A DNA stretch of 64,000 nt, taken from positions 3,274,730 through 3,338,729 of the forward strand of contig CP030887.1 of the NCBI GenBank assembly GCA_006969905.1, written 5' to 3'. Within the stretch, counting starts at the first letter, position 1; every line of letters starts with the position of its first letter. The notes under the pieces were generated by a model that had not been told where the DNA came from, made no database searches, and saw nothing but the letters and a program-made list of their open reading frames with translations. Shown here piece by piece: positions 16,037 to 16,955 of the stretch. The DNA comes from Balneolaceae bacterium. Its GTDB lineage: Bacteria > Bacteroidota > Rhodothermia > Balneolales > Balneolaceae. Position numbers and translations under genes: made by a program.

Positions 16037-16432
16037 TACTTCTATTAGTTTTTATTAGATAAGAATCATTAACTAAATCTTAGTTACGAATTATACTTAC
16101 TCATTTTATGAGTATAAAACATAATCTTATCTTTTTAACCAGATATAAAACAGTTATTGAATTTTAAGTAAGAATCGGTTCTTAAAGTGAATTTTGTATG
16201 AAGTAACATTTCTATACTGAAGCTTATAAAGCCAGAAAAAGAGTTCATAACCAATCTCATAAAATTTAATCGGTTGTTCAGTTGACCTTAGCTGAGTGAA
16301 TCTATATATCTAATAACCCTGATACAAAGAGAAGCAGAGAAATTAGAATAGATTGTGTCTGCATTCATTATCTAATTTCGGAATGGGATGAAATAAAAAA
16401 TGCGAACTCCGAAAACTCAAAGTTCGCACTTG
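16037..16432. other. AT-rich upstream region of the pilus cluster
   Basis: No gene is supported here. Near the ATPase start there is an inverted repeat, TTATACT and AGTATAA separated by 13 bases (16091-16117), which could be an operator or promoter element for the pilus cluster. The far end holds the terminator and tRNA remnant described separately. Confidence 0.45.
16389..16428 (-). terminator. Rho-independent terminator behind the tRNA-Asn remnant
   Basis: On the minus strand an 8-bp stem (TGCGAACT/AGTTCGCA, 12-base loop) is followed at once by TTTTTTATTT. It lies just downstream of the degenerate tRNA copy, as the other terminator does for the intact tRNA. It would also end transcripts of the GIY-YIG gene. 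Confidence 0.75.
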
Positions 16433-16495
16433 GCTCCCCGGGTTGGATTCGACCCCGCCCCGACAGCTGTCGGGGTGACAGCTGATTGCTCTGCT
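16433..16495 (-). pseudogene. Degenerate tRNA-Asn copy
   Basis: Twenty bases (GCTCCCCGGGTTGGATTCGA on the plus strand) are identical to the T-arm and 3' acceptor part of the intact tRNA-Asn. Sixteen further bases match its D-arm region at 14 positions. The anticodon arm between them is replaced by sequence containing an 18-base perfect palindrome, and the 5' acceptor half is missing, so no tRNA can form. The stop codon of the GIY-YIG gene falls at its edge. It may be the relic of a tandem tRNA pair or of an insertion event. Confidence 0.75.
16458..16475. repeat. Perfect 18-bp palindrome in the tRNA remnant
   Basis: CCCCGACAGCTGTCGGGG is its own reverse complement. It sits where the anticodon arm should be. 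It could be a nuclease target, a replication or repair scar, or a dispersed repeat unit; the window holds no second identical copy that I noticed. Confidence 0.8.
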
Positions 16496-16767
16496 CAATC
16501 TAAATAGTTCCTGATATCGACTTTACCTTCCACTAGGAACCGAATCATCTTCTTGCTCTTCCAACTCTTTACTTTTCGTTCAGCAATCAAGGCTTTTTCT
16601 TTGGTTTCAAAGCGGTACGCAAAAACTAATTTCCTGGGTCTGTACCTTTGGGTATATCCTTTGCTCTCAGAATTATGATATCTCAATCTTCGTTCTGGAT
16701 CATCCGAAACTCCTGTATAGTTGGTTTCTTTGCTTGCAGACTTTAGTATGTACAAATAGTAATTCAT
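16495..16767 (-). CDS. Small GIY-YIG nuclease domain protein
   Basis: 90 residues forming one GIY-YIG domain of the stand-alone UPF0213/YhbQ type. The two signature strands are YYLYILK (3-9) and NYTGVS (16-21); R27 in PERRLRYHN and E63 in AERKVKSWK match the usual catalytic Arg and Glu. No UvrC helix-hairpin-helix or UvrB-binding part is present. It lies between an intact tRNA-Asn and a tRNA-Asn remnant, each with its own terminator. Such small nucleases are common and of uncertain role; a link to mobility at tRNA sites is inference. Confidence 0.85.
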   Translation of the reverse strand: MNYYLYILKSASKETNYTGVSDDPERRLRYHNSESKGYTQRYRPRKLVFAYRFETKEKALIAERKVKSWKSKKMIRFLVEGKVDIRNYLD

Positions 16768-16773
16768 AGCTAT

Positions 16774-16809
16774 AAAAAAAGGACAATCAAGCTATGCCTA
16801 ATTGTCCTT
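16774..16809 (-). terminator. Rho-independent terminator of tRNA-Asn
   Basis: Nine-base-pair stem AAGGACAAT/ATTGTCCTT with a T-run on the minus strand, starting about ten bases after the tRNA 3' end. It separates tRNA transcription from the GIY-YIG gene, whose start codon lies immediately beyond the hairpin. Confidence 0.85.
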
Positions 16810-16819
16810 CAGTTTTTTG

Positions 16820-16891
16820 CTCCCCGGGTTGGATTCGAACCAACGACCGATCGGTTAACAGCCGATTGCTCTGCCACTGAGCTACCGAGGA
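16820..16891 (-). tRNA. tRNA-Asn (GTT anticodon)
   Basis: A 72-base cloverleaf folds cleanly: acceptor TCCTCGG/CCGGGGA, D-stem GCTC/GAGC, anticodon stem ATCGG/CCGAT around loop CTGTTAA, and T-stem GTTGG/CCAAC with loop TTCGAAT. The anticodon is GTT and the discriminator base G, as expected for asparagine. CCA is not encoded. A terminator follows. Confidence 0.95.
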
Positions 16892-16955
16892 AGATATCCC
16901 TTCAAGAGGGGCGACAAATATAATGAGAATGTCGGTCGACAGTCAATAGGATATC

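Follow-up and report, generated by a model that had tools for sequence, protein, structure and literature searches.

A GIY-YIG gene between a tRNA-Asn gene and a palindrome-bearing tRNA-Asn remnant: a likely member of a family of homing-type elements associated with particular host genes

In a 64-kb stretch of a Balneolaceae chromosome (hereafter, the window), a small GIY-YIG gene separates an intact tRNA-Asn gene from a remnant of the same tRNA gene. Our analyses indicate that this unit likely belongs to a family of homing-type elements that are small and free-standing and encode a single-domain GIY-YIG nuclease, with one nuclease subfamily for each conserved host gene. We established the anatomy of the units, the isotype-specific association of the nuclease genes with tRNA genes and their placement on the same strand, the accompanying remnants, and the patchy presence of units alongside empty sites, together with tandem copies, decayed ORFs, and covarying palindromes. 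Cleavage by the nuclease, homing or conversion, repair, movement or transfer between genomes, and the job of the palindrome are inferred, without assay data.

In order of transcription on the minus strand, the unit comprises a promoter-like site, tRNA-Asn(gtt), terminator 1, the GIY-YIG ORF, the tRNA-Asn remnant, and terminator 2. The intact tRNA-Asn(gtt) (16819-16891, minus strand) was the sole tRNA detected by ARAGORN in the window, and Rfam RF00005 matched the same locus at 69.3 bits. A DNA search of the complete 3.49-Mb genome to which the window belongs (G000) detected no second tRNA-Asn copy, and the site of the unit therefore looks like a single-copy essential gene. We consider this placement likely, with single-copy status resting on the whole-genome search. 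The promoter-like site 5' of the tRNA (16917-16946, minus strand) was recognized by consensus only (10 of 12 matches) and is weak, since shuffled sequences averaged 1.8 sites of equal quality. Terminator 1, in the gap between tRNA and ORF (16778-16810, minus strand), is of the GGAC...GTCC-T7 type common to other Asn-type units. We observed similar terminators directly 5' of the ORF in other genera, with 29 of 55 pairs exceeding all of 100 shuffles. The ORF itself (16495-16767, minus strand; 273 nt) encodes a 90-aa single-domain nuclease of the Asn-type subfamily.

The remnant (16433-16494, minus strand) starts immediately 3' of the TGA stop codon of the ORF and corresponds to about nucleotides 18-73 of the tRNA. 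Two blocks of direct repeat connect it to the intact gene, 16430-16455 with 16816-16841 (92%) and 16473-16494 with 16853-16874 (86%), and its SW score against tRNA-Asn was 57, whereas neither 30 shuffles nor any other isotype exceeded 23. Between the repeat blocks lies a perfect 18-nt palindrome, CCCCGACAGCTGTCGGGG (16458-16475, minus strand), and the pattern CCCGA-N0-8-TCGGG occurs only this once in the window (shuffle mean, 0.19). Terminator 2, 3' of the remnant (16398-16431, minus strand), is common to Asn-type units of two other genera beyond chance, with scores of 70 for the G055 locus (100 shuffles, at most 27) and 37 for the G054 locus (at most 24). The G055 locus shares this terminator yet shows neither truA nor gspE. 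As RNA, the remnant with terminator 2 gave a folding z of -3.88. The original prediction, made from the sequence alone, had described a GIY-YIG gene flanked by an intact and a degenerate tRNA-Asn, each with its own terminator, with 20 identical bases at the T-arm and acceptor of the remnant and a nuclease gene ending exactly at the remnant edge. All of these claims held, with the 20 identical bases forming the 3' end of the remnant, TCGAATCCAACCCGGGGAGC. It had also claimed that a palindrome replaced the anticodon arm. The palindrome held, and we narrow the replaced part to the anticodon stem's 3' strand plus the first part of the variable loop.

We detected 14 GIY-YIG matches in the genome that contains the window, including 12 small genes, one match that we take to be UvrC, and one further match to a 305-aa protein. 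Four of the 12 small genes formed a subgroup, group A, and all four lie at stable-RNA genes: tRNA-Asn (the window), tRNA-Gly (L014), tRNA-Pro (L010), and the RNase P RNA gene, rnpB (L004). The order at tRNA-Pro is reversed, with a second leader and 5' tRNA half (91% over 64 nt) preceding the ORF and then the intact tRNA; in this half, the hairpin sequence TCACGCAAGACTGCGTGA substitutes for the 5' strand of the anticodon stem. REP-like palindromic repeats surround most of the other eight small genes (group B). As a separate observation, five group B loci (L003, L006, L008, L011, and L016) carry REP-like palindromic repeats at their flanks, in direct or inverted orientation (TCATGCTGAACTTGTTTCAGCATCT; GCGAGGAG..GACGAAGCAATCTC). 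The flanking repeats included 137-nt direct repeats (93%) around L011, 43 nt (95%) around L016, and 31-nt inverted repeats on the flanks of L003.

The window ORF matched Pfam GIY-YIG (PF01541) at 52.5 bits, well above the curated cut-off of 22.6. The catalytic residues of GIY-YIG nucleases are two Tyr, one Arg, and one Glu, with roles known from I-TevI. The expected catalytic residues, Y6, Y17, R27, and E63, were invariant in two alignments, A1 (five group A proteins) and A3, with H31 also invariant in A3. Across A1, the invariant positions included Y6, Y17, G19, R27, N32, E63, and K67. The nearest solved structures were the UPF0213 proteins BH0048 (1zg2, E 3.9e-10) and EF2693 (1ywl), and the nuclease profile also reached SLX1, a structure-specific nuclease. 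UPF0213 or YhbQ-type single-domain proteins share the domain and are of about equal length; they are listed as hypothetical, and the genomic linkage to tRNA genes is a new feature of the units described here. The window protein had no match in NCBIfam, and neither it nor the tRNA-Gly-type protein had a match in PHROGs, where the rnpB-type protein matched homing endonucleases weakly (best, 5.1e-5). Phage and plasmid collections gave weak matches only, and thus we saw no vector.

Comparison of eight genomes of the genus revealed both empty and occupied sites for three targets. At the truA-tRNA-Asn site, five of the eight congeners (G001, G002, G003, G004, and G006) possessed a single tRNA-Asn with other sequence and no ORF. 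The site was occupied in G000, G007, and G005, all in the order tRNA-terminator-ORF, and the tRNA-Asn genes of these three were identical over 73 nt. In G007, a second species of the genus, we found an orthologous ORF (63% identity) and a remnant; in G005, the tRNA-Asn, terminator, and ORF start are followed by the end of the contig just inside the ORF. The tRNA-Gly site was empty in five of eight genomes (G001, G002, G004, G005, and G007), with a leader resembling that of G000, and G003 and G006 contained an ORF at a tRNA-Gly having a different leader. For rnpB, each genome had a single match; the ORF occupied helix P3 of this only detected copy in G000, G001, and G003, and P3 was short and empty in the other five (G002, G004, G005, G006, and G007). 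Because TruA is 93-97% identical among G001, G002, G003, G004, and G006, occupied and empty rnpB alleles exist among close relatives. A TruA comparison does not resolve the deep branching of the genus, and therefore it remains possible that the patchy presence at tRNA-Asn reflects an old gain plus loss rather than transfer.

The RNase P insertions place a GIY-YIG ORF within the P3 loop of the RNA gene (L004:1498-1755, L032, L033, and L036) on an added stem of 14-24 bp. In L004, a 24-bp perfect inverted repeat that extends helix P3 brackets the ORF. The Rfam match at this locus starts inside the ORF because the true 5' strand precedes the ORF.

We then surveyed 58 genomes of the same family with A1 as the query, of which 45 matched. 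Loci were found by protein similarity and not by genomic place. From the best-scoring matches came 86 further group A loci (an initial 30 and 56 further rows judged to be group A) and 40 control loci drawn from the lower-scoring matches; these 40 and the 56 further group A rows made up 96 regions. A few borderline rows were left out (for example, G054:C38, G043:C169, and G056:C14), as were duplicates (L030, equal to L004, and L064, equal to L042) and ORF pieces below 45 bits. In group A, an ARAGORN tRNA was no more than 500 nt away for 72 of 98 ORFs (88 loci) and no more than 250 nt away for 67, versus 1 and 0, respectively, of 50 control group B ORFs (48 loci; Fisher p 9e-19). All 72 tRNA-linked ORFs were on the same strand as the tRNA at a median distance of 62 nt, and their isotypes were Gly (21), Ser (16), Met (11), Asn (9), Pro (6), Val (4), Asp (3), and Leu (2). 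ARAGORN also calls scarred copies as tRNA (for example, L169), and its tRNA-Stop at L184 and overlapping tRNA-Lys at L185 are probably spurious. By eye, we classified the remaining 26 group A ORFs from their flanks: four were in rnpB, ten were at Asn, Asp, or Met remnants, four were members of tandem arrays, one was at a terminator hairpin, one was unclear, and six were in protein genes, which we take to be those of a tyrosine recombinase (three), rmlB (two), and a transposase (one).

A nuclease tree of 103 rows indicated that the nuclease clade follows its target, whether Asn, Gly, Pro, Asp, Val, Met, Ser, Leu, rnpB, or protein genes, with Met and Ser each split. The target label changed 34 times on the tree, compared to a mean of 77.3 after shuffling, and none of 200 shuffles was as low. 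All 21 Gly rows formed one group, the four rnpB rows grouped together (97), as did 11 Asn rows (93), and Asp, Pro, Val, and Leu formed groups or near-groups. The tree was built on 90 columns, omitted fragments shorter than 60 aa, and contains many weak forks. Beyond the family, we collected 41 named loci with an Asn-type alignment, 23 of which were within 250 nt of an ARAGORN tRNA, in every case on the same (+) strand as the ORF. Asn-type ORFs adjoin tRNA-Asn in Balneolaceae and Ignavibacteria. Remoter relatives adjoin tRNA-Val(tac) or tRNA-Met in Mucilaginibacter terrigena and Pedobacter rhizosphaerae, among others, and in Flavobacteriales, Saprospiraceae, and Chitinophagaceae bins; sister subgroups adjoin tRNA-Asn, -Val, and -Met in Ignavibacteria and Bacteroidia. 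The low-scoring named matches L200 and L203 were not at tRNA genes.

Remnants of the neighboring tRNA recurred on the far side of the ORF. For 51 of 71 tRNA-linked ORFs, the far-side match to the same tRNA exceeded all 30 shuffles, and for 55 of 71 it exceeded that to every other isotype. The remaining 20 of 71 had no remnant above shuffles (for example, L014, L043, L044, L058, and L065); L043 has a scarred tRNA copy on the near side instead. We identified 18 palindromes in 16 loci that were exactly bracketed by sequence of the neighboring tRNA, most of which substitute for 8-10 nt consisting of one helix strand and part of a loop. Their positions within the tRNA were 37-46 for Asn, 38-47 for Met, 26-33 or 50-57 for Gly, and 26-35 or 11-19 for Pro. 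GC-rich hairpins were concentrated in the 80-nt far flank (5.63 per kb; background, 0.26 per kb). Across 14 Asn-type remnant rows, including those of Ignavibacteria, the palindrome was paired in 96.8% of cells, with nine two-sided (compensatory) changes compared to 2.7 in shuffles and at most two in slid structures. These data suggest that the hairpin of the Asn remnant is likely either maintained or remade at the same spot. We also observed extra tRNA-Asn copies without an ORF at L043, L169, and L174, some of full length, with the same swap of a helix strand for a palindrome, and scarring is therefore not confined to the ORF-associated copy.

Similar palindromes also occur outside the units: TCCCGA-N0-8-TCGGGA is present at 11 places in the genome containing the window (L155-L165; a reversed control pattern gave 3 per strand), often in the tip of REP-like hairpins. 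Two of these palindromes lie in long open frames (L156 and L162). An origin of the palindrome as a random copy of a dispersed repeat could therefore be only partly rejected.

Units in tandem were present at L042, L062, L063, L071, L075, L092, L098, and L109, and broken ORF copies were present at L050 and L058 and as the second ORFs of L037, L046, and L061. These arrangements are compatible with a course of gain, amplification, and decay.

In the explanation that we favor, the nuclease would cut a tRNA-Asn gene that lacks the unit, either as such or in a hairpin form. An occupied copy would then serve as the repair template through homology in the tRNA and leader, and this repair would install the tRNA, terminator, ORF, remnant, and second terminator. 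One intact tRNA would remain in the cell after insertion, so that an essential single-copy gene could accommodate the unit. The other tRNA copy would persist as a disarmed remnant, predicted not to fold as a tRNA because the palindrome substitutes for one helix strand; the palindrome would probably also block homology for recombination that deletes the ORF, or remove the nuclease site. Since both terminators recur in units of other genera, the whole assembly from tRNA to second terminator may travel together. The kept parts of the remnant are nearly identical to the intact tRNA, and thus the sequence cannot separate the resident copy from one brought in. A strict model in which the remnant is the leftover of the resident gene, as for fungal mobile ORFs, was unsupported, as terminator 2 is common to units of two other genera; this sharing is compatible with the remnant belonging to the unit.

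Several known element types were considered and rejected. The ORF lies outside any intron or intein, and Rfam gathering scans of 12 loci from the same genome and 20 further loci returned only tRNA and RNase P and no group I or II intron family. A tRNA-integrating island was rejected given that the insert consists of the 273-nt ORF only, without an integrase, and a REP/RAYT system with its tyrosine (HUH) transposase was rejected given that GIY-YIG was the sole Pfam match of the ORF.

Tandem tRNA duplications and pseudo-tRNAs are common, and an ordinary decayed tandem tRNA pair into which the GIY-YIG gene fell by accident must be weighed against the homing-type reading. This commonness and the full-length scarred copies without an ORF at L043, L169, and L174 speak for such a pair. 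Against it, the setting is common to 72 of 98 subgroup ORFs versus 1 of 50 controls, the nuclease clade predicts the isotype, and the palindrome position recurs within isotypes and covaries, and we regard this explanation as very unlikely. The related genomes offered no decayed tandem pair with the GIY-YIG gene elsewhere, only an empty single tRNA-Asn or the same arrangement. The original prediction had proposed a tRNA-targeted mobile or homing-type unit or, alternatively, the trace of a tandem pair broken by nuclease-driven repair. The former is supported by the correspondence of clade and isotype and the presence of the same subgroup at tRNA-Pro, tRNA-Gly, and rnpB. The latter is less likely because the palindrome of Asn-type remnants occupies the same tRNA position from Balneolaceae to Ignavibacteria with compensatory changes. 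Chance alone is contradicted by recurrence of the layout in G007 with an orthologous nuclease and at dozens of loci with related nucleases.

Two functional alternatives also appear unlikely. As a host or defense system, the nuclease would attack DNA or RNA bearing the tRNA in question, such as phage-encoded tRNA genes or integrating elements that target tRNA 3' ends, with the tRNA and remnant conferring immunity or acting as a decoy. Isotype specificity and linkage to one tRNA would fit this idea too, and the remnant could be a decoy. However, two of three proteins went unmatched in PADLOC and the third reached only E about 0.004, insertions in RNase P RNA P3 and in presumed recombinase, rmlB, and transposase genes do not fit, and patchy, decaying, tandem copies fit a selfish element better. 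A general palindrome- or hairpin-directed family would instead target REP-like repeats (group B) and tRNA or rnpB stem-loops (group A). In its favor are the REP-like palindromic repeats flanking group B ORFs in the same genome, the rnpB ORF within a 24-bp perfect inverted repeat, the TCCCGA..TCGGGA palindromes inside REP-like repeats, and the reach of the profile to the structure-specific SLX1. However, the isotype-specific clades favor sequence recognition over shape alone, and the evidence from group B loci comes without an empty-site comparison. A bolder reading joins three claims: that the units form an undescribed class of bacterial chromosomal element whose GIY-YIG lineages radiated by essential target; that the palindrome-armed pseudo-tRNA is a functional right end selected for its hairpin; and that a wider hairpin-directed system exists in which group B nucleases spread REP-like palindromes. 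Taken jointly, these claims remain tentative, and we lean slightly against them.

The closest known systems to the homing-type units, by analogy, are phage T4 SegB and the mobile ORFs of fungal mitochondria. Homing endonucleases have been described in phages, introns, inteins, and organelles. The gene for SegB, a GIY-YIG homing endonuclease, stands free between tRNA-Arg and tRNA-Ile in the phage tRNA cluster (PMC2988022); the enzyme causes tRNA and segB to amplify in tandem, and there is microhomology between a tRNA 5' end and the segB 3' end (PMC13096335). Both SegB and the units are free-standing GIY-YIG genes at tRNA genes, but SegB resides in a phage genome rather than a bacterial chromosome, one enzyme serves a tRNA cluster instead of a subfamily for each isotype, and no palindrome-scarred remnant is described in the relevant sections of these papers (PMC2988022, PMC13096335). 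Fungal mobile ORFs (mORFs) occur in atp6, atp9, cox2, and nad3, with a GIY-YIG type in atp9, and supply a 3' end for the target that displaces the native one, which leaves the order gene, supplied 3' part, ORF, and native remnant (PMC3630166). The units resemble this order of target gene, ORF, and displaced piece of the same target (above shuffles in 51 of 71). They differ in that mORFs target protein genes in mitochondria and have two 3' parts of different sequence, which here are almost identical; the relevant sections of PMC3630166 describe no tRNA targets and no palindromes. In integrase-type islands, to which partial tRNA copies are often attributed, the insert lies between one full and one partial tRNA copy, as in the units, but the islands are about 9-23 kb in the cases given (PMC9897764), compared to one 273-nt ORF without an integrase. 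Rickettsia palindromic elements are short palindromes inside coding and RNA genes; here, short palindromes replace 8-10 nt of a tRNA helix strand beside a nuclease gene. Our search of the open-access literature, limited to titles and abstract openings, found no account of bacterial tRNA genes that are accompanied by GIY-YIG genes and tRNA remnants or of isotype-specific chromosomal units, which is not proof of absence.

That the layout recurs in many related bacteria, with a separate enzyme subfamily at each kind of tRNA, suggests mobile genes of a little-noticed type that live off tRNA genes. If the homing-type reading is true, these units would constitute a large, free-standing chromosomal family with a lineage for each tRNA isotype and one inside the essential RNase P ribozyme. 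They would provide about ten natural matched nuclease-target pairs, with most nucleases around 70 to 100 residues long, from which one could learn how GIY-YIG enzymes select their targets. The family would also account for tRNA fragments and pseudo-tRNAs of Bacteroidota and their relatives and offer a testable case of an essential single-copy gene tolerating a nuclease that may cut that gene.

The insertions in protein genes, whose hosts were identified by eye, showed features of their own. At L078, L079, and L083, group A ORFs break the presumed tyrosine-recombinase gene just 5' of the catalytic motif, and inverted repeats, CCCCGTTAGAAAT / ATTTCTAACGGGG or variants, lie at the ends of these insertions. 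At L082 and L085, a second copy of about the first 36 nt of a presumed rmlB-like dehydratase gene precedes the ORF, and the intact gene follows it.
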